Under the pieces are notes generated by a model. The model did no database searches and was not told where the DNA came from. It saw nothing but the letters and a program-made list of their open reading frames with translations. A stretch of DNA of 64,000 bases from Oerskovia jenensis (GTDB lineage Bacteria > Actinomycetota > Actinomycetes > Actinomycetales > Cellulomonadaceae): the NCBI RefSeq assembly GCF_016907235.1, contig NZ_JAFBBO010000001.1, positions 1,922,001 to 1,986,000 on the forward strand, written 5' to 3'. The first letter of the stretch is position 1, and each line of letters begins with the position of its first letter. Positions 25,957 to 46,985 of the stretch are shown piece by piece. Both the position numbers and the translations under genes were made by a program.

Positions 25957-26005
25957 GCGCCGGCACGACGCGGCAAGCGTGCAGCACGACGACAGTGAGG
26001 AAGCG

Positions 26006-31037: not shown

Positions 31038-31085
31038 GGGTGTCTCCTGGAGGCAGTGGTCCCGCGAAGAGGGGACTCGGTGCTT

Positions 31086-31190
31086 GCGGCCGTCGGACGA
31101 CGGCCGCCAGGTCTTGCTCGGGAGCACCCCACCACGACGCGAGGGTTGCTGATCCACCTGCCGAGCCAGACGGTGGATCTCGTGACCGCG
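31086..31190 (-). promoter_or_regulatory. SAM-IV-type riboswitch upstream of metQ operon
   Basis: Read on the minus strand, GGTCACGAG (from 31187) opens P1, which closes with GACC (near 31113-31110). Between them are CAGCAACCCTC and GGTGGGGTGCTCCCGAG, the SAM-IV core; the same blocks precede the flavin reductase operon. P1 is followed at once by a perfect 9-bp hairpin (31086-31107) that overlaps the 3' arm of P1 by two bases and could switch between states. It lies 49 bases before metQ. SAM binding should repress the operon (known for the class). Confidence 0.8.
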
Positions 31191-31823: not shown

Positions 31824-32921
31824 CTACCGCGCCGTGAAGCCCTTGGCGCGCCGCACGTCGGCGGGCCCCCAGAGGTCGGTCTTGACCTCGGCCCGGACCA
31901 GCGGCACGACCTCCTCCGCGAACCGCCTCAGCACGTCGTCCTGCCGGGCCGGCTCCAGGAGGTGGTTGATCGAGACCGACTGGAGGTCGTGCCCGTAGCT
32001 CTGGTGGTAGTCGAGGATCTTCTCGGCGACGCGCTCGGGCGAACCCACGAGGGCCGGGCCGCGCTCGACGGCCTCCTCGATGGTCCGGAAGCTCGTGACC
32101 TTGCCGACCGCCGCGGGGTCGTACTTCCGCAGGTCCGCGCGCGCGACCGCTCCCTCGTAGATGGGGCGGAACTCCTCGATCGCCTGCTCGGTCGTGTCGG
32201 CGAGGAAGAGGCCCCCGGACCCCGAGCCGACGAACCCGTACGCCGGGTCGTGCCCGGCTGCCGCGTACCGGTCGCGGTAGTGGTCGATCAGCACCTGGTA
32301 GTTCTCCCGGGGCTGGAGCGCGTTGGCGCTCACGATCGGGTCACCCCACCGCGCTGCGAGCTCGACCGAGAACGTCGACGTCGCCGAGCCGTGCCAGATC
32401 CGGAACGCACCGTCGTACGGGCGCGGCAGGGTCGTGGCACCCTGCAGGTCCGGGCGGTGACGGCCCTCCCAGTCGACCTCCTCGCCGCTCAGGAGCAGCC
32501 GGAGGAGCTCGTAGTTCTCCTCGAGGTACTCGTACTGCTTGGCGAGGTCGAGCCCGAGCAGCGGGTACTGCAGCGCCTCGTTGCCCTTGCCGATCACCAT
32601 CTCGAACCGGCCGCGGCTGAGCTGGTCGATCGTCGCGTAGTCCTCGGCGACGCGGATCGGGTCGAGCAGGGACAGCACGGTCACGCCCGTGCTCAGCAGG
32701 ATGCGTGACGTCCGCGCGGCGATCGCCCCGAGGATCACGGTGGGAGACGACGACAGCACGTCGCCCGCGTGCCGCTCGCCGACCGCGAACGCGTCGAGGC
32801 CGAGCTCCTCGGCGAGCACCGCGGTCTCGACGACGCGCTCGAGCCGGTCGGCCGCGGGGACGGCCCGGCCCGTGACGGGGTGGGGAGGGTTGAAGACGAT
32901 GTCGAGGACCTGGAAACGCAC
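31824..32921 (-). CDS. LLM class flavin-dependent oxidoreductase
   Basis: A 365-residue luciferase-like TIM-barrel oxidoreductase (FMN/F420-type family). Key stretches: LDAFAVGERHAGDVLSSSPT (about 42-61; the GERH segment binds flavin phosphate in LLM proteins), ILLSTGVTVLSLLDPIRVAE (about 73-92), LSRGRFEMVIGKGNEALQYP, and GSATSTFSVELAARWGDPIV. The C-terminal third includes PALVGSPERVAEKILDYHQS. The substrate is unknown; the neighbours suggest a sulfur or amine compound. Last gene of the long minus-strand unit, separated from the preceding LLM gene by the 30-bp repeat hairpin. Confidence 0.88.
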   Translation of the reverse strand: MRFQVLDIVFNPPHPVTGRAVPAADRLERVVETAVLAEELGLDAFAVGERHAGDVLSSSPTVILGAIAARTSRILLSTGVTVLSLLDPIRVAEDYATIDQLSRGRFEMVIGKGNEALQYPLLGLDLAKQYEYLEENYELLRLLLSGEEVDWEGRHRPDLQGATTLPRPYDGAFRIWHGSATSTFSVELAARWGDPIVSANALQPRENYQVLIDHYRDRYAAAGHDPAYGFVGSGSGGLFLADTTEQAIEEFRPIYEGAVARADLRKYDPAAVGKVTSFRTIEEAVERGPALVGSPERVAEKILDYHQSYGHDLQSVSINHLLEPARQDDVLRRFAEEVVPLVRAEVKTDLWGPADVRRAKGFTAR

Positions 32922-32950
32922 GGTGGCTCCTAAGGGGGTGGGGGTCGTGC

Positions 32951-33018
32951 CGAGGTAGAGGGCTCTGGTCGAGGTAGAGGGCTCCAGACCTCTACCTCGA
33001 CCAGAGCCCTCTATCTCG
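32951..33018. repeat. Intercistronic hairpin built from CGAGGTAGAGGGCT repeats (copy 1)
   Basis: Near-perfect 30-bp stem (32951-32980 with 32989-33018; 29 Watson-Crick pairs and one G-U) closed by 8 bases. The left arm holds two direct copies of CGAGGTAGAGGGCT (32951, 32971) and the right arm inverted copies. A second such element lies at 35257-35324. It separates two LLM genes of one apparent operon and lacks a T tract. Confidence 0.85.
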
Positions 33019-33039
33019 CGGAGGGAGTGGGGATGGGGT

Positions 33040-34155
33040 TCAGGCCGCCTGGGTCTGCGCGGCCTCGGCGTCGCGCTTGGCGACCTCCTCGCGCACGATC
33101 GGGATGACGTAGCGGCCGAAGTCGGTCGCGTCGTCGAGCAGGTCGTAGCCGCGCGCCGAGATGATGCGGACGCCGAGGTCGTAGTAGGCGAGCAGCGCCT
33201 GCGCGACGGTCTCGGGCGTCCCCACGAGGGCGTTCGAGTTGCCCGCTCCCCCGGTGGCCTTGGCCGTCGCGGTCCACAGGGCCGTGTCGAACCGGTCGCC
33301 CTGCGCGGCGATCTCCAGGAGGCGCTGCGAGCCCGCGTTCTCGGGCTTGTCGATCGGGTGACGACGGCTCAGCACCCCGCCGCCCGCCGCCTTGCGGGCC
33401 TCGATCCGCTCCAGGATGCCGTGCGCCTTCTCCCAGGCCAGCTCCTCGGTGGCCCCGATGATCGGCCGGAACGCGGCGTGGATGCGCGGCGGCGTGGAAC
33501 GGCCGGCGGCAGCCGCCTCGGCGTGCACCCGCTGGATCTGCTCGGCCGTGCGGTCGAGCGGCTCGCCCCACACCGCGTAGATGTCGGCCTCGGCCGCACC
33601 GACCGTGAACGCCGCGTCCGAGGAACCACCGAACGAGATGGTCGGCGTGCGTCCCTCGAACGGCTTGGCGTCCAGCACGAAGTCGTCGAGGTCGTAGAAC
33701 GTCCCGTGGTGGTCGAACGGCTCGGCGCTCGACCAGGCCTTCTTGACGATCTGGATGTACTCCTGGGTACGGGCGTAGCGCTCGTCCTTGGTGAGCGTGT
33801 CGCCCTCGCGCCCCTGCTCGTGGTCGTTGCCGCCCGTGATGAAGTGGACGGACAGGCGCCCCTCGGAGAGCTGGTCGAGCGTCGCGAACGACTTGGCCGC
33901 GAACGTCGGGTAGGAGACGTTGGGCCGGTGCGCGAGCAGCAGCTCGACCGAGTCGAGGCGGGCTGCGGTCCAGGCCGCGAGCGCCGACGGCTCGGGCCCG
34001 CTCGACCCGTAGGCGAACAGGACGCGGGTCCAGCCGTTGTCCTCGTGGGCGCGCACGATGCGCTCGAGGTACTGCTTGTCGAACGGTGCGGTCGTACGGT
34101 CGGTGGTCTCGGAGGCGTCGCTCGTGGTCGCGATGCCGAGGAACTCGACGGGCAT
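33040..34155 (-). CDS. LLM FMNH2-dependent monooxygenase, SsuD-like
   Basis: A 371-residue two-component FMNH2-dependent monooxygenase resembling alkanesulfonate monooxygenase SsuD (family length about 370-380). Blocks: VLFAYGSSGPEPSALAAWTA (about 45-64), LLLAHRPNVSYPTFAAKSFA (about 72-91), LSEGRLSVHFITGGNDHEQG (about 95-114), FDHHGTFYDLDDFVLDAKPF and PTISFGGSSDAAFTVGAAEA. SsuD enzymes release sulfite from alkanesulfonates; that reaction is plausible here, with FMNH2 from the reductases in the region. The upstream acetyltransferase gene is 32 bp away and in the same direction. Confidence 0.88.
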   Translation of the reverse strand: MPVEFLGIATTSDASETTDRTTAPFDKQYLERIVRAHEDNGWTRVLFAYGSSGPEPSALAAWTAARLDSVELLLAHRPNVSYPTFAAKSFATLDQLSEGRLSVHFITGGNDHEQGREGDTLTKDERYARTQEYIQIVKKAWSSAEPFDHHGTFYDLDDFVLDAKPFEGRTPTISFGGSSDAAFTVGAAEADIYAVWGEPLDRTAEQIQRVHAEAAAAGRSTPPRIHAAFRPIIGATEELAWEKAHGILERIEARKAAGGGVLSRRHPIDKPENAGSQRLLEIAAQGDRFDTALWTATAKATGGAGNSNALVGTPETVAQALLAYYDLGVRIISARGYDLLDDATDFGRYVIPIVREEVAKRDAEAAQTQAA

Positions 34156-34187
34156 GGTGTTCTCCGGGGGTGAGGGGTGGGTTCGGG

Positions 34188-34838
34188 TCAGGTGGGGTCG
34201 GACGGGGAGTGCTGCCGTCCCGGCGAGGGCGGCGCCGGGGCGAGCTCCAGTCCGTACGCGTGCAGACGGCCGCCGCCCTCGCCCTCGATCACACGGGTCT
34301 CGCGCTCGGGCAGGCGCCGGAACCCGAGGGCCGCGTAGAGGCGGTGCGCGCGGACCATCTGCGGCCCGGAGTTCATGACGACCCGCTGCGCCCCCTGCGC
34401 GCGGGCCACGTCGAGGACGTGCAGCGTGAGCGTCGTCCCGATCCCCCGGCCGCGGGCGGCGGGCGCGACGCCGAGCAGCCGGAAGTCGAGCTCCCCGTCG
34501 AGGGCCAGGGGCGAGATGTGCCGGCCGGGCAGGGGTGTCGCGACGGTGCCGAGCAGCGCACCCGTCTCGTCGACGGCGACCCACACGTCGTGCTCGGCCG
34601 CGCGGCTCGCGACGTCGCGCAGCACGGCGCGGTACGACTCCGAGATCGAGTACTCGTGCCCGTACGCCGCGTCGAGCAGGTCGGCGACGGCCTCGTGCTC
34701 GGCGGGGGTCACGAGCCGCACGGTCACCCCGGCACCCTCCCGGGGTGACCCCGCTCCCCGGTGGGTCCGCTCGCCCGGGTGAGCGGCGTCGTCGGGCGTG
34801 CTGTCCGCGTGCGGCCGTGCCGTGGTGGGCGCGCTCAT
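34188..34838 (-). CDS. GNAT family N-acetyltransferase
   Basis: A 216-residue GNAT acetyltransferase. A disordered N-terminal extension (1-37) precedes the domain. Acetyl-CoA site: RLLGVAPAARGRGIGTTLTL (about 119-138; motif A R-G-x-G-I/G), followed by motif B MNSGPQMVRAHRLYAALGFR. The ATG overlaps the stop of the rhodanese gene by 4 bp, so it is translationally coupled. In the B. subtilis cmo pathway an acetyltransferase N-acetylates S-alkyl-cysteines before oxidation; a similar role is possible but the acceptor is not deducible. Confidence 0.85.
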   Translation of the reverse strand: MSAPTTARPHADSTPDDAAHPGERTHRGAGSPREGAGVTVRLVTPAEHEAVADLLDAAYGHEYSISESYRAVLRDVASRAAEHDVWVAVDETGALLGTVATPLPGRHISPLALDGELDFRLLGVAPAARGRGIGTTLTLHVLDVARAQGAQRVVMNSGPQMVRAHRLYAALGFRRLPERETRVIEGEGGGRLHAYGLELAPAPPSPGRQHSPSDPT

Positions 34839-35224
34839 GCGCGCTGCCGGACGGGCTCGTGCGGGCCCGACGGCGTCGCTCCCGTCCCCGGGGAGGCCGG
34901 GAGCCCGGCGTCGCGCCAGGCGGGGAAGCCGCCCTCGACGTGCGTGACGTTCGTGTAGCCGCGTGCCGCGAGGGCCTCGGCGACCGGGCCCGAGCCGCGC
35001 TCGGAGCCGCAGACCACGACGACCGGGGTGTCGAGCGACACCGCGGGGGCCGACGCGGAGCCGAAGATCGCGTCGAGGTCGTCGCGGTCCGTGATCGTGG
35101 CGCCCGGGATGGTGCCCGCCGCAGCGCGCCCCCCGTCGCTGCGGACGTCGATCAGGAAGGCGCCGTCGGCGACGCGGGCCCCCGCGTCGGTGGCCGGGGC
35201 GAGGAGGGGCTGGTGCTGGGTCAT
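34835..35224 (-). CDS. Rhodanese-like sulfurtransferase domain protein
   Basis: A 129-residue single-domain rhodanese. Blocks: FLIDVRSDGGRAAAGTIPGA (about 23-42) and the active-site loop VVVVCGSERGSGPVAEALAA (about 68-87) with catalytic Cys72, followed by ARGYTNVTHVEGGFPAWRDA (87-106). It could carry the sulfane sulfur released by the neighbouring oxygenases. Coupled to the GNAT gene by an ATGA overlap. GGAGACGAC precedes the ATG. Adjacent to the second repeat hairpin. Confidence 0.88.
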   Translation of the reverse strand: MTQHQPLLAPATDAGARVADGAFLIDVRSDGGRAAAGTIPGATITDRDDLDAIFGSASAPAVSLDTPVVVVCGSERGSGPVAEALAARGYTNVTHVEGGFPAWRDAGLPASPGTGATPSGPHEPVRQRA

Positions 35225-35256
35225 GTCGTCTCCTGGGTGTGATGGGTGGCGGGTGC

Positions 35257-35324
35257 CGAGGTAGAGGGCTGGCGTCGAGGTAGAGGGCTGGAGCCCTCTA
35301 CCTCGACGGGATCCCTCTACCTCG
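35257..35324. repeat. Intercistronic hairpin built from CGAGGTAGAGGGCT repeats (copy 2)
   Basis: 33-base arms (35257-35289 and 35292-35324) matching at 28-29 positions with one internal mismatch bubble. Two direct CGAGGTAGAGGGCT units (35257, 35276) face inverted copies. Its right edge supplies the TAG stop codon (35317-35319) of the MsnO8-like gene. Confidence 0.85.
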
Positions 35325-36591
35325 CGAGGGCTGGTTCGCGGGCGGCCGCGACGGCAGGTTCGACCGCAGCCGCCCGCAGACCCCAGTGCTGGGCCAGCAG
35401 CTCGAACGAGCGGGCCCGGTCGGCGGGGTCGTGGGCGGCGGTCGTGACGACGATCTCGTCGGCCCCGGTCACGCGGGCCAGGGTCTCGAGGCGCTCGACG
35501 ACGGTCTCGGGCGACCCGACGAACCGCGTGTCGACCCGGTCCTGGACGGCGGCCCGGTCGGCGTCGGTCAGGTCCTCCCACGCGGGCGACGTGCCGGGCG
35601 CCGGGTAGGCGATCGCACCGCCGGCGCCGCGACGGATCGACAGGACCCAGGCCGTGAAGGGCTCGCCGATCCGGCGGGCCTCGGCGTCGCTGTCCGCGAC
35701 CAGGACGTCGGCCGAGACCACGACGTACGGGTGGTCGAGCACCCCCGGCCGGAACGCCGCCCGGTACGCCGCGATCGTGTCGAGGGTCGCGGACGGGCCC
35801 ACGTGGTAGTTCGCGGCGAGCGGCAGCCCGAGCTCGCCCGCGACACGTGCGCTGATCCCACCGCTCGACGCGAGGACGAACAGGTCGAACGCCGCGCCCT
35901 CGACGGGCGGGCTCGTCCACGCGGTGCCCGCGCCGTCGGTGAACGTCCCGGCGCGCAGCCCCAGGACCAGCTCGAGCTCGGCGCGGAACTCCCCCGGGGT
36001 CCGGCTCGCGCCCACGACCTCCTTCTGCGCGAGCAGCCGCTCACGCAGCGCGGAGTCGGAGAAGTCGACGCCAGGTGCCGCGGGGACCAGGAGCCCGTCG
36101 ACCACGCGCGGCCCGGCCGGCCGGGCGGGGGCGGGCGGTACCTGCGCTGCGGGCGGCGCCTCTCCCGTGCCCGACGGCGGGGCCTCGCCGCCCGCGCTCT
36201 GCGCACCCCTGGCGGGCGGCGGCGTGAACGCCCGGCCCAGTCCCAGGTCCACCCGGCCCGGGTGCAGGGCCGCGACGGTCCCGAACTGCTCGGCCGCGAT
36301 CAACGGGCTCGTGGTGCTCAGCAGCACGGCCCCCGATCCCACCCGGATGCGCGGCGTGCGCTCCGCGACGAGGGCCGCGAGGACTGCGGGGGACGCCGAC
36401 GCGACGCCCGGGGACAGGTGGTGCTCGGCGAACCAGATGCGGCGGTAGCCGAGCGCGTCCGCGCGGATCGCGGTGTCGAGCGTGTCGCGCAGGGCCTGGG
36501 CGCCTGTCGCCCCCTCGCTCACGACCGCGAGGTCGAGGATCGACAGCGGGACCCGGGGCTGGTGGGTGGCCGGGAGGTCGGAGGTGGTCAT
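35317..36591 (-). CDS. LLM class oxidoreductase, MsnO8 family
   Basis: A 424-residue luciferase-like oxidoreductase of the MsnO8 group, to which B. subtilis CmoO/YtmO belongs. Blocks: PLSILDLAVVSEGATGAQAL (about 15-34), RIWFAEHHLSPGVASASPAV (about 51-70), RIRVGSGAVLLSTTSPLIAA (about 82-101) and GTVAALHPGRVDLGLGRAFT (about 105-124). An unusual Pro/Ala/Gly-rich insertion (about 125-163) interrupts the barrel. The C-terminal half includes VLASSGGISARVAGELGLPL. The stop codon is inside the repeat hairpin. GAGGA precedes the ATG at 36591. Preceded by another hairpin (36626-36674). Confidence 0.88.
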   Translation of the reverse strand: MTTSDLPATHQPRVPLSILDLAVVSEGATGAQALRDTLDTAIRADALGYRRIWFAEHHLSPGVASASPAVLAALVAERTPRIRVGSGAVLLSTTSPLIAAEQFGTVAALHPGRVDLGLGRAFTPPPARGAQSAGGEAPPSGTGEAPPAAQVPPAPARPAGPRVVDGLLVPAAPGVDFSDSALRERLLAQKEVVGASRTPGEFRAELELVLGLRAGTFTDGAGTAWTSPPVEGAAFDLFVLASSGGISARVAGELGLPLAANYHVGPSATLDTIAAYRAAFRPGVLDHPYVVVSADVLVADSDAEARRIGEPFTAWVLSIRRGAGGAIAYPAPGTSPAWEDLTDADRAAVQDRVDTRFVGSPETVVERLETLARVTGADEIVVTTAAHDPADRARSFELLAQHWGLRAAAVEPAVAAAREPALAR

Positions 36592-36625
36592 CGAAAGGTC
36601 CTCTGTGAGTCGGTGGGGCGCTGGG

Positions 36626-36674
36626 TGCGGAGTAGTTGTCGTCGATCGCCCGATCTGACGACATCTGCTCCGCA
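36626..36674. repeat. TGCGGAGTAGTTGTCGTC-type hairpin (copy 1)
   Basis: 18-base arms TGCGGAGTAGTTGTCGTC (36626-36643) and GACGACATCTGCTCCGCA (36657-36674), two mismatches, extended inside by GATCG/CGATC. It lies between the nitroreductase and MsnO8 genes. A near-identical arm occurs at 46928-46944, and a related one at 60907. Confidence 0.75.
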
Positions 36675-36690
36675 CTCAGCAGGAGGTGGG

Positions 36691-37575
36691 TCAGCGGGAC
36701 GGCAGGCCGCGCGCCGCGAGCGCCGAGTGCAGGTGCGCGTGGCCGCGCTGGGGGCCGGGGATCGCGAGCCGGTCGACCACGCGGCGCCGCCAGCTCTCCG
36801 TCAGCCCCTCGTCGCGGTAGAACGGCGCGATGACGTCCTCGTAGGCGTCGACGTGCTCGGCCTGGGCGTCGAGGTCGTACGTCTCGTGGTGCAGCACCGC
36901 GGCCTGCGGCAGCCGCGGCTTGACCCGCTCGCCTCCCGCCGGGTCCGGGTGCCCGACGACGAGCCCCACCACCGCGACGGTGCCCGCGGGCAGGCCGAGC
37001 TCGTCGGCGACCTGCTCGGGGTGGTGACGCAGCGCGCCGATGTACACGGTCCCGAGCCCCAGCGACTCCGCGGCGACGACCGCGTTCTGCGCCGCGAGGG
37101 CCGCGTCGACGAACGCCACGACCGTCGAGTCCAGGTAGTCGGTCCCCTCGAGGGAGGTGCCGTGCGCCTCGCCGATCGCGCGCGCACGCGCCAGGTCCGC
37201 GAGCCACACGAGCAGGAGCGGCGCCTGCCGGATGTGCTCCTGACCGCCCGCGAGCGCCGCGAGCCGGTCCTTGCGCTCCGGGTCGGTCACCGCGACGACG
37301 CTCCAGAACTGCATGTTGGACGACGTCGGGGCCGACTGCGCGGCTGCGACGAGCGTCGGCAGGACCGACTCGTCGAGCGGGTCGGGGAGGTAGGCGCGCA
37401 CCGTACGGTGCCGCAGGATCCCGTCGATCGTCTCGGTGGGCGGAGCGAGGAGGACGGCCTGGTCGGCGCCGTAGCGCTCGGCCAGGGGCGAGCCCGTCGC
37501 GGGGGCCGCCTCGGAGGGAGCGGGGTCGGCGGGCGCGGTCTCGGCGAGGGCGTCGAGGTCGGTCGTGGTCGACAT
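36691..37575 (-). CDS. NADPH-dependent flavin oxidoreductase (nitroreductase/NfsA-like)
   Basis: A 294-residue FMN enzyme of the nitroreductase family (NfsA/FRP-type). Motifs: DGILRHRTVRAYLPDPLDES (about 51-70, FMN phosphate), AAAQSAPTSSNMQFWSVVAV (about 77-96), VDAALAAQNAVVAAESLGLG (about 156-175) and VYIGALRHHPEQVADELGLP (about 177-196). Vibrio FRP of this fold supplies FMNH2 to bacterial luciferase, so here it probably feeds the LLM monooxygenases; nitro-reduction itself may be incidental. AAAGG lies before the ATG at 37575. It follows the amine oxidase gene after 61 bp. Confidence 0.85.
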   Translation of the reverse strand: MSTTTDLDALAETAPADPAPSEAAPATGSPLAERYGADQAVLLAPPTETIDGILRHRTVRAYLPDPLDESVLPTLVAAAQSAPTSSNMQFWSVVAVTDPERKDRLAALAGGQEHIRQAPLLLVWLADLARARAIGEAHGTSLEGTDYLDSTVVAFVDAALAAQNAVVAAESLGLGTVYIGALRHHPEQVADELGLPAGTVAVVGLVVGHPDPAGGERVKPRLPQAAVLHHETYDLDAQAEHVDAYEDVIAPFYRDEGLTESWRRRVVDRLAIPGPQRGHAHLHSALAARGLPSR

Positions 37576-37636
37576 GGTGGCCTTTCGGTGGGTCGGAGCG
37601 GATCGAGGTGGTCGGTGTCGCAGGAGGGTCGGCCGG

Positions 37637-38830
37637 TCAGCCCGCCCGGCCGGGGACCTGCGCCACGGGACCGCGTGCGAAGCGGGCCAGGGAGAACAGG
37701 CGGTCCGCGGCCTCGGGCGACGTGTCCGGGTCCTCGCGGGCCAGCCCTGCCAGGACGCGCCCGATCGACGGCGCGAACTTGAAGCCGTGCCCCGAGAACC
37801 CCGCGGCGATCACGACGCGGCCCACGCGGTCGAGCACGAAGTCGTGGTCCGGGGTCGTGGTGTACGTGCACGAGACGGGCACGAGCCGGTCCGCGTCGGC
37901 GCCCGGCACCCACGTCCGGACGTAGTCCTGGAGCTGGGCGAGCTGCCCGGGCTCGGGCCGGAAGGTCCGCCGGTCGGGGTCGGTGCGCGGCCCGACGCCG
38001 TGGAAGCCGACCTTGATCCCCTCGCCCGGGGTCGCGAGCCCGTAGACGCCGCTGGGCCACGCGTGCGGCTCGGCGGGGGCGTGCGTGAACGCCGGCCAGG
38101 TGCCCTCCGCCGGTGCACCCGGGGCGAGCGCGAAGTGCGCGGGCTGCTCCTGGGTGACGACGAGGGACGGGAGGGGCGCGGCGCCGTCGGGCTCGGGGAA
38201 CGCCTCCCCCAGCAGGCCCGCGCTCCACGCACCCACGGCCACCACGACCGTGCCCGCGACCAGGTCGCCCCGGTCCGTGACGACGCGCACCGAGCCCGGT
38301 CCCGGGTGCACGTGGCGGACGTGGACGCCGTGGCGGACGTCGGCACCGTGCGCGCGGGCCGCGGACTGGAAGGCCCCGACCGCACGGTCGGCGTGGACGC
38401 GGCCGGCCGTCGCGGTCTCGTGCAGCACGTCGCCCTCGAACCGCAGGCCCGGCCAACGCTCGGCGGCCTCCTCGGGCCGCAGCCACTCGTGCGGGATGCC
38501 GCGCTCGACGAACGCGTCCCCGATCTCGGTGCGCCGTGGGAACCCGTGGCTCACGCCACCCGTCAGCGTGAGGACCGCGTCCGCGCGCAGGCCGGCGTCG
38601 CGCTCGAGCTCGCGCCACAGGCCGAACGCCTCCTGCGCGAGGTCGAGGTACGCAGGCTGGGAGTACGTCGTGCGGTAGATGCGCGACGCGCCGTGCGAGG
38701 CGCCGTTCGCGTGGCCGGGCTCGAAGCGTTCGAGCAGGACGACGTCGTGCCCCGCGCGCGCGAGCTGCCACGCCGCGGCGGACCCCATGACGCCACCGCC
38801 GACGACGACGTGCGACACGTGCTCGGTCAT
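37637..38830 (-). CDS. SolA/MTOX-family FAD-dependent amine oxidase
   Basis: A 397-residue flavoprotein of the monomeric sarcosine / N-methyltryptophan oxidase family. FAD site HVVVGGGVMGSAAAWQLARA (about 7-26) with acidic E34 region; ASHGASRIYRTTYSQPAYLD; C-terminal VSCTYTTTPDHDFVLDRVG, where Cys321 aligns with the Cys that covalently holds FAD in MSOX/SolA, and GFSGHGFKFAPSIGRVLAGL. It would oxidise a secondary or N-methyl amino acid, releasing aldehyde and H2O2. Its link to sulfur scavenging is only by location within the operon. Confidence 0.88.
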   Translation of the reverse strand: MTEHVSHVVVGGGVMGSAAAWQLARAGHDVVLLERFEPGHANGASHGASRIYRTTYSQPAYLDLAQEAFGLWRELERDAGLRADAVLTLTGGVSHGFPRRTEIGDAFVERGIPHEWLRPEEAAERWPGLRFEGDVLHETATAGRVHADRAVGAFQSAARAHGADVRHGVHVRHVHPGPGSVRVVTDRGDLVAGTVVVAVGAWSAGLLGEAFPEPDGAAPLPSLVVTQEQPAHFALAPGAPAEGTWPAFTHAPAEPHAWPSGVYGLATPGEGIKVGFHGVGPRTDPDRRTFRPEPGQLAQLQDYVRTWVPGADADRLVPVSCTYTTTPDHDFVLDRVGRVVIAAGFSGHGFKFAPSIGRVLAGLAREDPDTSPEAADRLFSLARFARGPVAQVPGRAG

Positions 38831-38920: not shown

Positions 38921-39982
38921 TCAGGGCTTGGGCAGCCCGGGCGGGTTGGTCTCCGAGGTAGGGATCGCCTCGTCCTCCAGGCCCCAGTGCTCGAGGAGCT
39001 CCGCGTAGCTGCCGTCCTCGATCGCGTGGTTGATCGCCGCGGTCACGGCCGGGGCCAGCTCGCTGCCCTTGAGGGTCGCGACGGCGATCTGCGCGGTCGC
39101 GGGCCAGCCGCCGTTGAGCGTGCCGACGACCTTGTACTGGTCGGGCGCGGTCGCGGCGCTGTACGCGAGGCTCGCGTTGGGCCCGACGTACACGTCGAGG
39201 CGACCCGACGCGACCGCGAGCAGCGCGTCCTTGTAGTCCTCGTAGTACTCGGGCTCCCCGCCCTTGACGGGGTCGAGGCCCGCGGCCACGTTCTCCTCGT
39301 TCCAGGCGAGCAGGATCTTCTCCTGGTTGGTGCCCGACCCGACGCCCACCGTGAGGCCCGCGATGTCCTTGGCCTCCTTGATCGCGGGCACCTTGTCGTT
39401 CGACGCACCCGAGAGCCAGCCGAGCTGGTCGTTGCGGTAGGACGAGAAGTCGTACAGCTCCTTGCGCTCCTCGGTCACGGTCACGTTCGAGATCACGGCG
39501 TCGACGTCCCCGGACTGCAGCGCGAGCGGCCAGTCGGCCCACGCCTTGACCTCGAGCTCGAGCTCGAGCCCCAGGGCGTCGGCCACGAGGACCGCGATGT
39601 TGGGCTCGTTGCCGATGGGCGTCTTGTCGTCGTCCGCGAGGAAGCCGAGCGGAGGCAGCCCGCCCGCGGTCGTGGAGACCTTGAGCACGCCCGCGGCCTT
39701 GACGTCCGCGGGCAGGAGCGCGATCGCCTCGGGCGAGGCGGTCGTGTGGATGAACTCCTGGTCGGGCGAGGTGTCGATCACGAGCCCGGCCGCCTCGGCG
39801 GCCTTCTCGTTGTCGGCCGTGCCCGGCTCGGCGTCGGCGCTCGTCGCGCACGCCGCGAGCAGCGCGAGGAGCGGCAGGGTCGCGACCGCGGCGACCGCGC
39901 GGTGGGAGAGGCGGGAGGGGCGGCGACCGGTGCGGGACGCCGCGGAGGAGCGGACGGTCGCGCCGGAGGTGTGCAGGGACAT
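38921..39982 (-). CDS. Amino-acid-type ABC importer substrate-binding lipoprotein (family 3)
   Basis: A 353-residue SBP_bac_3 lipoprotein with lipidated Cys45 in LALLAACATS after an unusually long basic N-terminus. Core: AAGVLKVSTTAGGLPPLGFL (about 96-115), FLADDDKTPIGNEPNIAVLV, GDVDAVISNVTVTEERKELY and AGLTVGVGSGTNQEKILLAW. The family binds amino acids including cystine; TcyJ/TcyK of B. subtilis take S-compounds. The gene precedes the ATPase-permease partner and sits in a sulfur operon, so an S-amino acid is the best guess (inference). Confidence 0.87.
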   Translation of the reverse strand: MSLHTSGATVRSSAASRTGRRPSRLSHRAVAAVATLPLLALLAACATSADAEPGTADNEKAAEAAGLVIDTSPDQEFIHTTASPEAIALLPADVKAAGVLKVSTTAGGLPPLGFLADDDKTPIGNEPNIAVLVADALGLELELEVKAWADWPLALQSGDVDAVISNVTVTEERKELYDFSSYRNDQLGWLSGASNDKVPAIKEAKDIAGLTVGVGSGTNQEKILLAWNEENVAAGLDPVKGGEPEYYEDYKDALLAVASGRLDVYVGPNASLAYSAATAPDQYKVVGTLNGGWPATAQIAVATLKGSELAPAVTAAINHAIEDGSYAELLEHWGLEDEAIPTSETNPPGLPKP

Positions 39983-40056
39983 CGTGTTCTCTTTCGTGGT
40001 GGGTGGGAGTGCGGTGGGGTGGGTGGCACGCACCGGGCAGCGGACGTGCCGAGACG

Positions 40057-40868
<812 letters not shown>

Positions 40869-40872
<4 letters not shown>

Positions 40873-42008
40873 GCGGCACCTCCGGTGTGGTGGTCGGTCG
40901 CGCCGGTCCGTGTCAGGTGGCCGCGGCCGACGGCGGCGCGCGCCGCGTAGGCGGGCGGCAGGTGGGCGGGCGCGGGGCGTCCGGTGACCCGGGACCACGC
41001 GACCTGGAGCGTCCACCGGACGCGCTGGACCGGGGTCGGGGGCAGCGTGCGGACGGCGCCCTTGGCGTAGTGCCGCTCGACGTAGTACTGCGCGATCGTC
41101 AGGACCGTCGTGATGATGAGGTACCAGATGGCCGCGACCATGAGCAGCGGGACGACGCGCTGGTTGCGGCCGTAGATCACGCCGATCGTGTAGAACAGCT
41201 CGCCGTACGCGAGGACGTACACGACCGAGGTGCCCTTGACGAGGCCGATGATCTCGTTGACCGACGTCGGCACGATGGTCCGCATGGCCTGCGGCAGCAC
41301 GATGCGCAGCGTCTGGCGCGAGCGCGGGATGCCCAGCGAGGCCGCGGCCTCGTGCTGGCCCTGGTCGACCGAGAGGATCCCGGCGCGCACGATCTCCGAG
41401 GAGTACGCGGCCTGCGACAGACCCAGGCCCAGGATCGCGGCACCGAACTTGTCGATCACGTCGAGGGTCCCGAACTCGAGGAAGCCCGGCCCGAACGGGA
41501 TGCCGAGCGAGAGCGTCGGGTAGAGGTAGGCCAGGTTGTACCAGAGCAGGAGCTGCAGGATCAGCGGCACCGAGCGGAACACCCACGTGTAGGCCGACGA
41601 CACGGCCTGGAGCAGCGGCGACCGGGACAGGCGCATGAGCGCGAGGACGGTCCCGAGCCCGAACCCGATGACCGCGGCGACCGCGGTGAGCCGGATGGTC
41701 CCCCACAGTCCGTTCAGCACCGAGGGCCACGTCAGGTACTGCGCGACGATCGTCCACTCCCACCTGGGGTTGGTCACGAGCGAGCTGATGACCATCGCGA
41801 GCAGGACGGCGACGCCGGCGGTCGCGACCCAGCGGCCCGGGTGGCGGGCCGGGACGACCTTGAGGTCCTCCCAGCGCGTCGTCGCGTCCGCTCCGCCCGC
41901 GGCGGTGGTCGCCGACGCGAGCGTCGCGGTGCCGGGTGGGTCGGGCAGCGATCCGGGGGGTGGGACGAGCTGGCGGGACTCGTCCTGCGGCAGGGACAGG
42001 GTGCTCAT
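40869..42008 (-). CDS. Amino-acid ABC importer permease
   Basis: A 379-residue permease, longer than typical (about 220-330) because of an N-terminal Pro/Ala-rich cytoplasmic segment (about 1-58) and a 55-residue basic tail. Membrane helices start at about 63. Signature: [60 protein letters not shown] and [20 protein letters not shown] (EAA loop). A single permease probably homodimerises, as usual in the polar amino-acid family. GAGG precedes the ATG. It follows the acetyltransferase gene across the hairpin 42057-42102. Confidence 0.9.
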
Positions 42009-42056: not shown

Positions 42057-42102
42057 CGTGTCAGAGCGAGCGTGACCTCGGGGTCACGCTGGTTCTGACA
42101 CG
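42057..42102 (-). terminator. Intercistronic hairpin between acetyltransferase and permease genes
   Basis: Arms CGTGTCAGA and TCTGACACG bracket a second perfect inverted repeat GCGTGACC / GGTCACGC around TCGG. The acetyltransferase stop (42084) lies within it. No T tract; it may be a partial terminator or mRNA stabiliser inside the operon. Confidence 0.65.
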
Positions 42103-42695
42103 TCCGGACAGAGCCACTTCTCGAACGCCAGGGGCCCGATCTCCTCGGGGTCGCGCGTCACGTCGAACAGCGGGGTGTACCCCGCGCCGAGATACAGACC
42201 CGCGGCCTCGGGCTGGCGGGGGCCGGTCGTCAGGTAGATCCGCGTGTAGCCGCGCGCGGCCGCACGCTGCTCGAGCTCGACGAGGACCTGGCGGGCGAGC
42301 CCGCGCCGCCGGTGGGCCGAGTGGGTCCAGATGCGCTTGAGCTCGGCGGTCCGCACGACGGGGGTGCCGTCGGCGTCGTGGGTCCCGCCCTGGGCGTACG
42401 GCCCGGCGCCGGGCAGGGTCCGGCGCGCAGGGTCGCCGACCTCCGGTTCTGCCCGACGGCGGAACGCCCCACCGGCGACCGGCTCGCCGTCCGCGAGGAG
42501 CAGCACGAGCTCGCCGTCGGGGGCCGCGAAGTCGGCGGCCGGGTAGTGCTCCATCTCGGCGCGGAGCTCTTCCTCGTCGAGCAGGCTGCGGTAGCGCGAC
42601 GCGTACTCGTGGGCGAGCTCGTCGAGGAGGGGCCGCACGAGCGGGTCGTGCAGGTGCACGGAGCGGGTCGTGACCGCCGTGGTGAGCGCGCTCAT
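42084..42695 (-). CDS. GNAT family N-acetyltransferase
   Basis: A 203-residue GNAT acetyltransferase. Domain: FAAPDGELVLLLADGEPVAG (about 55-74), acetyl-CoA motif RIWTHSAHRRRGLARQVLVE (about 120-139; R-R-x-G-L/A) and GYTRIYLTTGPRQPEAAGLY (about 148-167). The ATG overlaps the DUF1684 stop by 4 bp, so the two are coupled. Its position between a monooxygenase pair and an amino-acid importer fits N-acetylation of an imported S-amino acid as in the ytm/cmo pathway; the acceptor is not seen in the sequence. Confidence 0.86.
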   Translation of the reverse strand: MSALTTAVTTRSVHLHDPLVRPLLDELAHEYASRYRSLLDEEELRAEMEHYPAADFAAPDGELVLLLADGEPVAGGAFRRRAEPEVGDPARRTLPGAGPYAQGGTHDADGTPVVRTAELKRIWTHSAHRRRGLARQVLVELEQRAAARGYTRIYLTTGPRQPEAAGLYLGAGYTPLFDVTRDPEEIGPLAFEKWLCPDVSEPA

Positions 42696-43657
42696 CGGGG
42701 GGCCTTCTCCCCCGCCTCGACCGAGAACGGCAGGACGTTGCCGTCGACCGGGCGCGGGCACGTGCCGAAGTCGGTGAAGGCGTAGGGCAGGTTGAGCGTC
42801 CGGTTCAGGTCGAGGCGCAGCGTGCGGGCGGCGTCCGGGCCGGCCGTGGTCTCGTCGTCCGACGTCTCGGCCACATCGGTCCCGGACCCACCGGCCGTCG
42901 CACGGTCGACGAACAGCACCCGCCAGTCCGCGATACCGGGGGCCGGGTCGGTGAACAGCAGGCTCGTGCTGCCGCCGGGCGTGCCCGTGAGCCGCAGCGT
43001 CGTGGTCAGGCCGTCGCGCGCGACGTCGACCTCGCCCACGACCTGGACGTGGTGCTCGAGGCCGGGCTGCGCCCCGCCCACGACCTCGGCGACCGGGGCG
43101 TCGTACCAGCGCACCGGTGCGTCGAGGACCCATGACGGGTCGTAGTCGAAGGTCGGGACCCCCTCGAACGCGACCCGGGTGCGAGCCCGGGGGTCACGCA
43201 CGCGCAGCCCGTACCTTCCGGTGCGCCGCACGAGCTCGACCGCGACGGGCGAGGCCGGGTCGACGCCGTCGGGCACGAAGGTCGCGACGAACGTCGAGGC
43301 GCCCTCCGCGACGTCCTGCACGTGCGTGCCGCGCAGCACGTCCTGGCCGCCGGCCGGGACGATCGCGTCGGCCGCCGCTGCCCGCAGGTGCACGCCGTCC
43401 GTGTCCGACCACCACTGGCCGGGCAGGCCCGGGAAGGCCGTCGGGGACTCCGGGACCCAGTGCAGCGTGGTGAGCGTGAGCCAGCCGTGCTGCTCGCGCA
43501 GGGTGCGCTCACGCTCGGCGTGCCACGCCGACCACGCGGCGACGGCGGCGCTCGTCGCCGAGCCGTCGGACGGCTCGGCGGGCGTGCCCGTCGGTGCGGA
43601 CGCCGTGTGGCGGCCGCGCGTGGTGACGCCTGTCGGGGACGTGGTGCTCGTCGTCAT
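42692..43657 (-). CDS. DUF1684 domain protein
   Basis: A 321-residue protein carrying DUF1684, a domain of unknown function common beside LLM and sulfur genes. Family blocks: HAERERTLREQHGWLTLTTL (about 45-64), HWVPESPTAFPGLPGQWWSD and the C-terminal LRLDLNRTLNLPYAFTDFGT followed by CPRPVDGNVLPFSVEAGEKA. The last block has conserved Cys and Pro. The N-terminus is Ser/Thr-rich. AAGGAG precedes the ATG at 43657. It overlaps the GNAT gene, which suggests linked activity; a hydrolase role is only speculation. Confidence 0.85.
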   Translation of the reverse strand: MTTSTTSPTGVTTRGRHTASAPTGTPAEPSDGSATSAAVAAWSAWHAERERTLREQHGWLTLTTLHWVPESPTAFPGLPGQWWSDTDGVHLRAAAADAIVPAGGQDVLRGTHVQDVAEGASTFVATFVPDGVDPASPVAVELVRRTGRYGLRVRDPRARTRVAFEGVPTFDYDPSWVLDAPVRWYDAPVAEVVGGAQPGLEHHVQVVGEVDVARDGLTTTLRLTGTPGGSTSLLFTDPAPGIADWRVLFVDRATAGGSGTDVAETSDDETTAGPDAARTLRLDLNRTLNLPYAFTDFGTCPRPVDGNVLPFSVEAGEKAPR

Positions 43658-43697: not shown

Positions 43698-45116
43698 TCA
43701 GGCGGAGTGCGCCGCGGCGCCGGAGGGGGCACGGGCGGGGATGCCCGTGCCCGCCTCGGGGCGCGCCAGCCCCAGGTGGTCCCGGAGCGTCGTGCCCGTG
43801 TACTCGGTGCGGAACGAGCCACGCTCCTGGAGCAGCGGCACGACCTGGTCGAACACGTCGTCGAGGCCGGCCGGGGTCAGGTGCGGCACGAGGATGAAGC
43901 CGTCCGACGCGTCCTCCTGCACGTGGCGGTCGATGTCGTCGGCGACCTGCTGGGCCGTGCCGACGAACCCGCCGCGGCCCGACACCTCGATCACGAGGTC
44001 CCGGATGGACCAGCCGTTGGCCGCGGCCTTCTCGCGCCACGCCGCGACGACGGGCGCGGGGTCCTTGATGTGCCGGACGCGGCCGCGCGTGATGTTCAGG
44101 TGGTCGAGGTCGGGCTCGACGTCGGGCAGCGGCCCCTCGGGGTCGTACGCCGTGAGGTCCCGACCCCAGACCTGCTCGAGGAACGCGATGGCGGTCCGGC
44201 CGGGGACCTGCTGGAGCCGGATCTCCCGCGCCCGCTCGGCGGCCTCCTCGGCCGTGTCCCCCAGGACGACGACCGTCGCGGGGAGGATCTTGAGCGAGTC
44301 GCGGTCGCGACCGTGGGCCGCGAGGCGGGACTTCACGTCGGCGTAGAACGCCTGGCCGTCCTCGAACGCCGAGTGCGCGGAGAAGATCACGTCGGCCGTC
44401 GCGGCGGCGAAGTCGCGACCGTCGGCCGAATCGCCCGCCTGGAACAGGACGGGGTGCCCCTGGGGCCCGCGGGGGGTCTCGAAGCGTCCCGCCACGTCGA
44501 AGTGCCTGCCCTGGTGCGCGAACGGTCGGACGGCCCCCGCCCGCTCGACCTCGTCGTCGTCCACGGCCTCGTCGGCCCACGAGTCCCAGAGCCGGCGGGC
44601 CAGGGCGACGAGCTCGCCCGCGCGCTCGTACCGCTCCTCGTAGGGCAGGAACCCGCCGCGACGGAAGTTGGCACCCGTGAAGGCGTCGGGGCTCGTGACC
44701 AGGTTCCAGGCCGCGCGGCCACCCGACAGGAGGTCGAGCGTCGCGAACTGGCGGGCCAGCTCGTAGGGCTCGTTGAACGTCGTGTTGACCGTACCCGCGA
44801 GGCCCAGGCGGTCGGTGACCGCGGCGAGCGCGGCCAGGACCGGGAGCGTGTCGGGGCGGCCGACCACGTCGAGGTCGTGGATCTGCCCCTTGTGCTCACG
44901 CAGGCGCAGGCCCTCGGCGAGGAAGAAGAAGTCGAGCTTCGCGACCTCGGCCCGGCGCGCGAGGTACTCGAACGACGCGAAGTCGATCTGGCTGCCGGAG
45001 GCCGGGTCGCTCCATACGGTCGTGTTGTTGACTCCCGGGAAGTGCGCGCCCAGGTGGATCTGCTTGCGGGGACGGCCGTCGCGCGAACGGGTCGAGTCGG
45101 GGGTGGGGTGCGTCAT
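43698..45116 (-). CDS. LLM flavin-dependent monooxygenase, NtaA/SnaA/DszA (CmoJ-like) family
   Basis: A 472-residue FMNH2-dependent monooxygenase. Blocks: HLGAHFPGVNNTTVWSDPAS (about 21-40), FDFASFEYLARRAE-like segment, LAGTVNTTFNEPYELARQFA (about 106-125), LDLLSGGRAAWNLVTSPDAF (about 127-146), NFRRGGFLPYEERYERAGEL, PVLFQAGDSADGRDFAAATA. It is closer to CmoJ/NtaA than the met-operon copy. In B. subtilis CmoJ cleaves the C-S bond of N-acetyl-S-alkyl-cysteines; an analogous role is likely. GAGGAACC precedes the ATG, overlapping the previous gene's stop region (12-bp gap). Confidence 0.9.
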   Translation of the reverse strand: MTHPTPDSTRSRDGRPRKQIHLGAHFPGVNNTTVWSDPASGSQIDFASFEYLARRAEVAKLDFFFLAEGLRLREHKGQIHDLDVVGRPDTLPVLAALAAVTDRLGLAGTVNTTFNEPYELARQFATLDLLSGGRAAWNLVTSPDAFTGANFRRGGFLPYEERYERAGELVALARRLWDSWADEAVDDDEVERAGAVRPFAHQGRHFDVAGRFETPRGPQGHPVLFQAGDSADGRDFAAATADVIFSAHSAFEDGQAFYADVKSRLAAHGRDRDSLKILPATVVVLGDTAEEAAERAREIRLQQVPGRTAIAFLEQVWGRDLTAYDPEGPLPDVEPDLDHLNITRGRVRHIKDPAPVVAAWREKAAANGWSIRDLVIEVSGRGGFVGTAQQVADDIDRHVQEDASDGFILVPHLTPAGLDDVFDQVVPLLQERGSFRTEYTGTTLRDHLGLARPEAGTGIPARAPSGAAAHSA

Positions 45117-45128
45117 GGTGGGGGTTCC

Positions 45129-46409
45129 TCAGGCGATCGCAGCGGCGTAGCGGTTGGCGGGGCGTGCGAGCCCCAGGGTGTCCCGCAAGGTCGTGCCGGG
45201 GTAGGCCGACCGGAAGACACGGGCCTCCTGGAGCAAGGGCACGACGCCGTCGACGAGGGCGTCGAGGTCGGTGCGCAGCGAGGACGGACGGATCGTGAAC
45301 CCGTCGGCCGCGCCGGCGTCGAACCACTCCTCGACCAGTTCGGCGAGGTCGCGGGCCGTGCCGACGTGCGTGAGCGAGTCGGTGTCCCACGTGATGCCCT
45401 CGAGCCCCTCGAGCAGGTCGAGCCGCGCCTGCGCGCTGGCCCGGTCCTGCCCGATCACGGCGTACAGGTCGACCAGGACGCGCAGGTCGTCGGGGTCCCG
45501 GCCCGCGTCCGCGGCGGCGGCACGCACCTGGTCGCGCAGCGCCTTCGCACCGTCGAGCGTCGTGGCCCGTACGCGCACGACGTCGGCGCGACGGCCTGCG
45601 AGGGCCAGTGCCTCGGCGGAGTCCGCGCGCACGACGACCGGGGGCTGCGCCTGGGGTGAGCGGGGCGTGATGGAGGGCCCCTTCACGGCGAAGCGGACGC
45701 CGTCGTAGTCGACGTAGTGCACCTTGTCGCGGTCGATGAACCGGCCCGAGGGGACGTCGCGGATCTCGGCGTCGTCCTCCCAGCTGTCCCAGAGGCGGCT
45801 CACGACCTCGATGGCCTCCTCGGCCTCGGCGATCGCGTCCGCGGGGCTCTGCGCGTCCTTGCGGCCGAAGAGCGCCGCGGCGGCCTCGCTCGTCGACCAG
45901 CCCACCTGCCAGGCCGCCCGGCCGGTGCTCACGTGGTCGATCGTCGCGATCGCCTTGGAGACGTGGAAGGGCTCGGTGTGCGTGGTGTCGACGGTCGCGA
46001 CGAGGCCGATGCCCGTCGAGCGGGGGGCCAGCCGCGAGGCCACGAGCGCGGCGTCGAGCCGGCCGCGGAGCGTCGTGTTGCGCGTGGGCTGGAGCGAGAA
46101 CGTGTCGTCGAACAGCGCGAAGTCGAGCACGCCGCGCTGGGCGGTCGCGACGAGCTCCTGCAGCCGGTGCGCGTCGAAGAGCTGCGGTGACTGCGATCCC
46201 ACGGCTCGCCACGCCCCCGCTCGCGCGCCGGCGTCGGACAGGTCGATGCCGAGGTGCACCGAGCGGCGCGGGCGCTCGTCGAGCAGGTCGTCGATGCTGG
46301 CGAGCGTGTCGAGGTCGTCCTCGACGGGCCGGCTCGCGGCCTGCTCGTCGGACTGGGCAGCGGGCTGCGAGGTGGGGGCGAACAGTGGCGTCAGGTTCGA
46401 GTCAGGCAT
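45129..46409 (-). CDS. LLM class flavin-dependent oxidoreductase
   Basis: A 426-residue luciferase-like oxidoreductase that opens the long operon. Blocks: RSVHLGIDLSDAGARAGAWR (about 49-68), LQELVATAQRGVLDFALFDD (about 81-100), GIGLVATVDTTHTEPFHVSK (about 132-151), TIDHVSTGRAAWQVGWSTSE (about 154-173) and PVVVRADSAEALALAGRRAD. The first 48 residues are an acidic, Ala/Gln-rich extension. The ATG at 46409 is supported by GGAG 11 bases upstream; a longer in-frame form (46583) lacks a better start. It lies 234 bp beyond the Cys-rich leader peptide. Confidence 0.87.
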   Translation of the reverse strand: MPDSNLTPLFAPTSQPAAQSDEQAASRPVEDDLDTLASIDDLLDERPRRSVHLGIDLSDAGARAGAWRAVGSQSPQLFDAHRLQELVATAQRGVLDFALFDDTFSLQPTRNTTLRGRLDAALVASRLAPRSTGIGLVATVDTTHTEPFHVSKAIATIDHVSTGRAAWQVGWSTSEAAAALFGRKDAQSPADAIAEAEEAIEVVSRLWDSWEDDAEIRDVPSGRFIDRDKVHYVDYDGVRFAVKGPSITPRSPQAQPPVVVRADSAEALALAGRRADVVRVRATTLDGAKALRDQVRAAAADAGRDPDDLRVLVDLYAVIGQDRASAQARLDLLEGLEGITWDTDSLTHVGTARDLAELVEEWFDAGAADGFTIRPSSLRTDLDALVDGVVPLLQEARVFRSAYPGTTLRDTLGLARPANRYAAAIA

Positions 46410-46643
46410 GGGTCGTTCCACTCCGGGAGGTCGGGTGCGGGGTCGCGAGGAGGGGCTGTCGCAGGGGTCGACGGACAGCCGCGACGGGTCGCGCGAACAG
46501 GGTGCAGCGGGTGGACCGCCCGGCGCGGTGGTCGGTGGCACCGTGGCCGGCCGTCGATCGGCATGCCGCGGCGACCCGGTCACGGGCGGGGCGGTTCAGG
46601 GACGAGCCGGCTCGGCTCGGGAGGCGTCAGGCGGAGCGCAGGC
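46410..46643 (-). other. C-rich leader segment between the Cys leader peptide and the operon
   Basis: 234 nt of the predicted transcript. On the minus strand it is rich in C and poor in G and lacks a stable intrinsic terminator, a profile compatible with a Rho loading region. No gene is supported. Confidence 0.4.
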
Positions 46644-46751
46644 TCAACAACAGACGCGGCCCGGGACGACGGGGCGCCCGGGGGAACAACACATTCGACG
46701 TGCGGGGGCCGACGTGGCCGTCACGAGGACGAGCGCGGTGCTGGTGTCCAC
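46644..46751 (-). CDS. Cys-Cys leader peptide (probable cysteine-responsive attenuator)
   Basis: A 35-codon ORF starting with GTG (46751), preceded by AGGAGG (46761-46756) four bases upstream. The peptide is MDTSTALVLVTATSAPARRM, then CCSPGRPVVPGRVCC. Cysteines are at 21, 22, 34 and 35, all TGT, the codon disfavoured in high-GC genomes; the last pair directly precedes the TGA stop. A CCCGGG/CCCGGG hairpin (46660-46682) lies between the pairs. Short Cys-rich uORFs act as cysteine-responsive attenuators in mycobacteria (established), and this one precedes sulfur genes. Low Cys-tRNA would stall ribosomes at the Cys pairs and change folding or Rho access (inference). Confidence 0.7.
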   Translation of the reverse strand: MDTSTALVLVTATSAPARRMCCSPGRPVVPGRVCC

Positions 46752-46804
46752 GGGTCCTCCTCGGGTCGTCGTGCTGCGGTGCGGCGGACGGGGCGTCTGC
46801 CGAT

Positions 46805-46827
46805 GGCCCGGAATGTATGCCCGGGCC
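46805..46827. promoter_or_regulatory. Inverted repeat over the -10 element of the organosulfur operon
   Basis: GGCCCGG (46805-46811) and CCGGGCC (46821-46827), 9-base spacer, covering the -10 hexamer. Position suits a repressor operator; no candidate regulator is encoded nearby. Confidence 0.45.
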
Positions 46828-46840
46828 CTGGGTGTGTCAA
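46812..46840 (-). promoter_or_regulatory. Promoter of the leader peptide and organosulfur operon
   Basis: Minus strand TTGACA (46840-46835), 17-bp spacer, TACATT (46817-46812). It is the best sigma-70-like match in the window; the predicted start near 46805 leaves about 54 nt before the leader GTG. Confidence 0.8.
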
Positions 46841-46920
46841 CGACTTGGGCCAACCGTCCGCATTCTGGACCGAATCAGTAGAGATTGAGACGGGAACCCG
46901 TCCGAAACGGACACCACCTT

Positions 46921-46985
46921 CCGCTGAGTGCGGAGTATTTGTCGTCATCACCGGCGATCCACAGCAACTACTCCGCACTCAGCGG
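46921..46985. terminator. Hairpin terminator after the SDR gene (TGCGGAGTA-type, copy 2)
   Basis: 17-bp perfect outer stem (46921-46937 with 46969-46985), then an imperfect inner stem around ACCGGC. The arm TGCGGAGTATTTGTCGTC resembles the hairpin at 36626-36674. It lies 7 bases beyond the SDR stop and upstream of the organosulfur promoter. Confidence 0.75.

Follow-up and report, generated by a model that had tools for sequence, protein, structure and literature searches.

A leader peptide with tandem cysteine codons as a probable cysteine-responsive attenuator of an organosulfur operon in Oerskovia jenensis and its relatives

The window analyzed here is a 64,000-nt stretch of the Oerskovia jenensis genome (contig NZ_JAFBBO010000001.1, positions 1,922,001 to 1,986,000), and coordinates refer to it unless indicated otherwise. 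A 14-gene operon runs along its minus strand from 46409 to 31824, preceded by a short leader ORF and its control elements.

46856..46870, minus strand: imperfect inverted repeat GTCCAGAATGCGGAC, probable activator site, 28-29 nt upstream of the -35 box
46812..46840, minus strand: leader promoter TTGACA-17-TACATT (-35 TTGACA at 46840-46835, 17-nt spacer, -10 TACATT at 46817-46812)
46756..46761, minus strand: Shine-Dalgarno (SD) sequence AGGAGG of the leader ORF, invariant in six Oerskovia
46644..46751, minus strand: leader peptide ORF VDTSTALVLVTATSAPARRMCCSPGRPVVPGRVCC, 35 codons, GTG start at 46751, TGA end at 46644
46686..46691, minus strand: first tandem Cys codons TGTTGT, codons 21-22, invariant in 6/6 Oerskovia
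46647..46652, minus strand: second tandem Cys codons TGTTGT, codons 34-35, then TGA; Cys invariant, one TGC in O. douganii
46410..46643, minus strand: C-rich untranslated spacer of 234 nt from leader stop to gene 1, candidate Rho loading region
46412..46424, minus strand: gene 1 ribosome binding site (RBS) GGAG..GGAACGAC, predicted pairing partner of GUUGUUCC at the first Cys pair, supported in Oerskovia only
45129..46409, minus strand: gene 1, NtaA/DmoA-family FMN-dependent monooxygenase (LLM), TIGR03860 above cut-off, ATG at 46409
43698..45116, minus strand: gene 2, second NtaA/DmoA-family monooxygenase
42692-43657, minus strand: gene 3, ORF without assigned family
42084-42695, minus strand: gene 4, GNAT acetyltransferase
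38921..42008, minus strand: genes 5-7, amino-acid-type ABC transporter (permease, ATPase, SBP_bac_3)
31824..38830, minus strand: genes 8-14, FAD amine oxidase, NfsA-like nitroreductase, MsnO8-type LLM, rhodanese, GNAT, SsuD-like LLM, LLM

The first-pass annotation of this DNA had described a TTGACA-17-TACATT promoter before a 35-codon, AGGAGG-led ORF containing two Cys-Cys pairs, all encoded by TGT, with the last pair abutting the stop. Each of these elements was found on the minus strand where it had been placed, with the pairs at codons 21-22 and 34-35, TGT at 4/4 Cys codons and the final pair directly followed by the stop. The promoter is the sole sigma-70-like site within 621 nt (0.0 expected in shuffled sequences) and lies about 50 nt from the leader start codon. 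The inverted repeat GTCCAGAATGCGGAC and relatives of it (GTCCASNATGYGGGA) occur 28-29 nt from the -35 box in Oerskovia, O. flava, Cellulosimicrobium and several Cellulomonas loci, and the element is probably an activator site working jointly with the leader. An Rfam search of the window leader yielded no SAM riboswitch or other element above gathering score. Farther upstream, a palindrome of approximately 65 nt (CCGCTGAGTGCGGAGTA...TACTCCGCACTCAGCGG, 46921-46985) belongs to a dispersed family with 37 arm matches in the O. jenensis genome, mostly as pairs 50 nt apart. It was present at this site in just 2/6 Oerskovia and is a candidate mobile palindrome or portable terminator.

Judged by gene content, the 14 genes form a sulfur-scavenging (organosulfur) operon, as had been proposed. 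Five luciferase-like monooxygenases are encoded (two of NtaA/DmoA type, one of MsnO8 type, one SsuD-like and one other), and the top model for the permease was a cystine permease, at a score below that model's cut-off. The frame of gene 1 is open upstream to 46583, and a long N-terminal extension through the spacer was considered. It was rejected, as relatives do not generally keep this frame open and ATG 46409 and its RBS are conserved.

Orthologs of gene 1 were present in 6/7 Oerskovia genomes, all six of which carry the leader. Loss of the Cys codons or of the frame in relatives, which the first-pass annotation had named as evidence against its proposal, was not observed: the reading frame, both Cys-Cys pairs and the terminal CC-stop were invariant in 6/6 Oerskovia. 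The first 20 leader codons vary and contain two in-frame indels, a 6-nt deletion and a 15-nt insertion. From the first Cys pair to approximately 60 nt past the leader stop, the DNA of the six Oerskovia is nearly frozen, synonymous sites included, which points to a constraint at the RNA level on top of the coding constraint.

Conservation across the family was assessed in 222 genomes, 54 of which encoded a gene 1 homolog at E values up to 1e-75. Among the 52 orthologous upstream regions examined, which are related by descent and fall into about 17 leader lineages by our own grouping, so that counts are not independent events, 49 contained an SD-led short ORF with at least two Cys at the same place (Cellulosimicrobium, Cellulomonas, Sanguibacter and others). 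The other three (two Luteimicrobium-type loci and one more) had a single Cys or no clear leader. Comparison with relatives, as had been suggested, thus revealed a short Cys-coding ORF family-wide in which the remaining peptide is wholly changed. Leader peptides ranged from 15 to 50 amino acids and had only Cys near the C terminus in common, mostly as CCR-stop; examples are MTRYGTSAAVTCPPMLSDACPSARSALRASCCR (L007), MDRRESSTAVSTPHAPTCPCPVRGAAVVPCPVGAPVRVTCCR (Cellulosimicrobium, L037), MSTDGQPAAIAGGLARLSSCCPGAGSGALSTCCR (Cellulomonas, L044) and MHRETNGTATTAIAALLCRSCFVGCCTCC (Antribacter, L010). As SD and start codons were picked by rule, the true start of some peptides may lie a few codons away. 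A TTGAC-17/18-TAnnnT-like promoter precedes the leader in nearly all 52 loci, at approximately 51-108 nt where no riboswitch is present and at 170-226 nt where there is one, distances in keeping with what is transcribed in each case.

SD-led short ORFs with at least two Cys in the last eight residues were found in 39/52 orthologous regions, compared to 0.6% of dinucleotide shuffles. Such ORFs were found on 0/52 antisense strands and before 0/45 homologous genes outside the family, and six LLM paralogs inside the family (L072-L077) had no such leader upstream. These controls bear on the possibility of a chance or nonfunctional ORF lying in a block conserved merely as an RNA or DNA element, an idea to which the approximately 60 nt past the stop, conserved in Oerskovia to the same degree as the Cys segment, lend some support. 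However, the shuffle, antisense and paralog controls contradict it, as do the in-frame indels and the recurrence of such leaders with unrelated peptides and before a second operon, and we regard it as extremely unlikely. As the peptides are otherwise unrelated between genera, it is the codons that appear to be selected and not the peptide. Comparative sequence data thus firmly support a translated-looking ORF, standing first on a sulfur operon, with selection acting on its Cys codons.

Codon choice is distinctive as well. TGT is disfavored in this DNA, in agreement with the earlier claim (5 TGT versus 60 TGC across 30 window genes), whereas leader Cys codons, counting one leader per lineage, were UGU in 49 and UGC in 14 cases (Fisher P ~1e-16). 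Bacterial tRNA-Cys carries the anticodon GCA and reads UGU by wobble. A slower, more charging-sensitive codon is therefore a plausible cause of the bias. Alternatively, the peptide itself could have a function, as a small Cys-rich protein that binds metals or thiols and is encoded first in the sulfur operon; its conserved residues are indeed Cys. This is very improbable, since between genera only the Cys near the C terminus are shared by peptides of 15 to 50 amino acids, no CxxC-like spacing pattern is retained, and a strong UGU preference is a feature of codons.

No SAM-IV riboswitch (RF00634) match was found upstream of the window leader. At 17 loci with orthologs of gene 1 (in Cellulosimicrobium, Cellulomonas, Luteimicrobium, O. 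flava and others), the leader start codon closely follows a SAM-IV aptamer encoded on its strand, at 13-62 nt from the aptamer end in 16 of the 17. At locus L071, the 5'-most leader start overlaps the aptamer and a later start lies after it; L066 was left out of this list because its SAM-IV is on the opposite strand. SAM-IV followed by a Cys leader was also seen in three further genera with more distant homologs (L013-L015). SAM-IV normally stands directly before a structural gene, whereas in these tandem loci it stands before the Cys leader. Visual inspection of tandem loci L007, L031, L040, L044, L047 and L055 showed a small GC hairpin just before the leader SD, with a sequence that varies between loci (for example, GCCCG-GAGA-CGGGC and GCCCGC-CAG-GCGGGU); it is likely the SAM-IV expression platform.

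The same arrangement occurs in O. jenensis itself, where an unlinked SBP_bac_5 transporter operon carries SAM-IV, then the leader MRAPGTEQEHDRRAVRHLDGPRLLVPCCR, then the gene. This locus and two further SAM-IV sites of the window are as follows.

L178 1290-1719 (genome near 4175673-4176102): SAM-IV, CCR-stop leader and SBP_bac_5 gene (nearest NCBIfam model TIGR04028)
25876-25985 of the window, plus strand: SAM-IV before a flavin-reductase-like gene (named by eye), no Cys leader
31075-31187 of the window, minus strand: SAM-IV before a MetQ-like lipoprotein gene (named by eye), no Cys leader

In other Oerskovia, the SBP_bac_5 leader peptide diverges and CCR-stop is kept; the operon in relatives has SAM-IV alone, the leader alone or neither. 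A general association of SAM-IV with Cys leaders was considered and rejected: the order's high-scoring SAM-IV, and 4/5 in O. jenensis, lacked a Cys leader directly behind them. The four of O. jenensis, including the two of the window, and the order's strongest stand directly before structural genes (the survey of the order covered the highest-scoring matches); behind two nontandem SAM-IV, a short ORF with Cys was present only deep within the following gene. SAM-IV and the Cys leader thus appear to be separate modules that are combined on scavenging operons.

Cys-rich leader uORFs are known from mycobacteria (Shell et al. 2015; PMC4633059), and Cys-dependent attenuation has been proposed for them and reported for Mycobacterium smegmatis (Canestrari et al. 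2020, as cited in PMC13236596). The window leader has the features of this class of Cys-responsive uORF attenuators, namely a short conserved ORF, Cys codons clustered near the stop and a sulfur operon downstream. The mycobacterial leaders (Ms5788A, NF042933; Ms4527A, NF042936) and the wider NF042934 "cis_reg_atten" family likewise combine a short uORF and end-clustered Cys codons with a sulfur operon. The likeness to mycobacterial Cys uORFs drawn in the first-pass annotation thus extends to the functional layout but not to the start or the sequence family: those uORFs are leaderless, whereas the window leader is SD-led with a 5' untranslated region, lacks an RRHVDLxRVxSAxC motif and precedes different genes (an LLM organosulfur operon). 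It had no match to NF042933, NF042934 or NF042936 at E values up to 10, and none of four CC(R)-stop leaders scanned with the NCBIfam Cys-leader models matched. The peptides L194, L141 and L149 passed the NF042934 cut-off; L141 and L149 are NF042934-type leaders before two LLM homologs outside the family. L194 is an NF042934 leader of O. jenensis (LLNRWNFTARRDVDLRRVASALCC, near 2745784) that stands before the gene of a sodium:dicarboxylate-type symporter, which may transport cystine.

Candidate Cys leaders were also described before cys operons of Mycobacterium and Propionibacterium acnes and before cbs of Bifidobacterium longum (Seliverstov et al. 2005; PMC1262725). They share with the present leaders the runs of Cys codons near the stop, the lack of a terminator, a polypyrimidine spacer and a proposed role of Rho, a step that was thus already suggested, on weaker grounds. 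However, they belong to other lineages and genes, and Rho motifs were unconserved there, whereas C-richness tracks the leader across the family here. The uORFC-8-2 of Rhodobacterales (PMC8632094) is likewise a short uORF with two tandem Cys codons before a cysteine-related gene, cysS, but has an intrinsic terminator and mostly UGC, while window-type leaders have no terminator and mostly UGU. The Cys leader would thus work like the mycobacterial uORFs and the Seliverstov candidates while lying outside the NF042933, NF042934 and NF042936 sequence families.

Selected Cys codons at the head of a sulfur operon are a signature of amino-acid-dependent ribosome stalling, with Cys-tRNA as the sole evident signal. 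The promoter, SD sequence, reading frame, conserved Cys codons, UGU bias, family-wide recurrence and C-rich spacer can be read directly from the DNA. From these we infer that the leader is translated, that ribosomes stall on it and in which direction the operon responds to cysteine. The conserved Cys codons and frame, the recurrence in the family and the content of the operon support the earlier reading of Cys-tRNA-sensing attenuation, and the leader is very likely a ribosome-mediated, cysteine-responsive attenuator of the 14-gene organosulfur operon. In the proposed sequence of events, a transcript would start at approximately 46805 and translation at the leader GTG. With Cys-tRNA charged, the ribosome would pass the tandem Cys codons to the stop and depart, leaving the C-rich spacer untranslated, and transcription and/or translation of the organosulfur operon would be curtailed. 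When cysteine is short, the ribosome would stall at the UGU-UGU pairs near the leader end, the block would be lifted, and the sulfonate/sulfone monooxygenases and the transporter would be made.

The output step might involve classical transcription attenuation, with an intrinsic terminator and an antiterminator. In most species, stable GC hairpins are indeed present behind the leader stop (for example, GAGCCG-NNN-CGGCTC in Oerskovia). However, none of these has a U-tract behind it, the sole terminator-like site on the leader strand is a 5-bp stem inside the ORF, and no structure is common across genera. The lack of U-tracts and of a shared structure makes intrinsic termination very unlikely, and no conserved terminator or antiterminator was found at the family leaders. 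Helices across the leader stop were no better than those of shuffles over 43 leaders (mean P, 0.52); such a helix had been noticed by eye in Cellulosimicrobium (GUUGUCG-CUGA-CGACGAC), and this structure was discarded.

Rho-dependent termination in the spacer is favored for this step, with a probability that we would put a little short of even. The spacer had been described as a C-rich, G-poor stretch of 234 nt compatible with Rho loading; its length and C-richness stand (49% C), while it is G-poor only in a relative sense (~30% G). C minus G was 0.19 in the window spacer, compared to 0.04 for the coding strand of the 14-gene operon, and averaged 0.22 in spacers with a leader, compared to 0.04 before homologs outside the family. 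For orthologous SBP genes, the value was 0.19 with a leader versus 0.07 without, a comparison weakened by the fact that the no-leader stretches are partly SAM-IV aptamer. The C-richness thus tracks the presence of the leader even at the second operon, and base composition, a weak kind of evidence, is the whole support for Rho loading; against it, the spacers were more structured than shuffles (mean z, -1.6). In Escherichia coli, tna-type leader attenuation is Rho-dependent and responds to an excess of the sensed amino acid. The Cys leader would be alike in that a ribosome at the end of the leader ORF would govern access of Rho to the adjoining spacer. However, it would be induced by starvation for the sensed amino acid and not by excess.

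Translational attenuation offers another output, in which the first Cys-Cys codons (GUUGUUCC) and the following CCGGG would mask the gene 1 RBS (GGAACGAC, CCCGG) by pairing with it. Stalling of a ribosome at the first Cys pair would then expose the RBS, making this a special form of the attenuator without Rho. Permissive RNAduplex predictions were uninformative in this GC-rich DNA and were replaced by a helix score with tighter criteria, set against synonymous and swapped controls. In Oerskovia, RNAalifold placed the partner of the RBS in the segment that separates the two Cys pairs, and the helix score placed it in the first Cys pair itself. With the first Cys pair masked, the RBS opening cost fell by 4 kcal/mol in the window, and the reduction went beyond that of nearly all control masks in 6/6 Oerskovia. 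The almost frozen synonymous sites between the two Cys pairs and a precedent in M. smegmatis, as cited in PMC13236596, also speak for unmasking. However, covariation was scarce because both helix strands are nearly invariant, one helix base pair is lost in O. douganii, and 5-31% of randomized synonymous leaders paired equally well. Neither pairing nor unmasking was seen in other genera, and masking the Cys codons had no opening effect on the downstream RBS when the whole family was considered (mean rank, 0.45-0.50). RBS unmasking is therefore a tentative proposal that we consider possible but rather doubtful. Rho termination and RBS unmasking can act together, and a closed RBS would itself invite Rho.

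The tandem of SAM-IV and Cys leader is the part of these results that a specialist would find surprising; a literature search, with most subscription journals outside its reach, found no paper on this two-signal layout. The tandem could be a modular two-input RNA gate, a possibility we judge to be evenly balanced, in which SAM would control leader translation or transcription and Cys-tRNA would then decide expression of the operon. SAM-IV would take, before the leader ORF, its usual place before a structural gene, and lineages would gain or lose either module, the window operon having kept the Cys module only and the second operon having both. If this is true, expression of the operon would require low levels of both SAM and cysteine.

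Overall, the retention of Cys codons across the family while the remaining peptide drifts suggests that the leader is very probably a cysteine gauge that switches the operon on at shortage. Cysteine attenuation has been worked out for a few operons of mycobacteria and is linked there to leaderless uORFs; here, unrelated SD-led Cys leaders were found in nearly all orthologous operons of one family. As the scanned leaders are missed by current models, they may provide an annotation rule for sulfur-starvation regulons in high-GC actinobacteria. Natural variants before orthologous genes (leader alone, riboswitch alone, both or neither) let the parts be separated, so that comparing close relatives can address two questions: how a stalled ribosome would act on a gene approximately 100-360 nt farther along when no terminator lies between them, and how a tRNA-sensing leader may be combined with a metabolite riboswitch.
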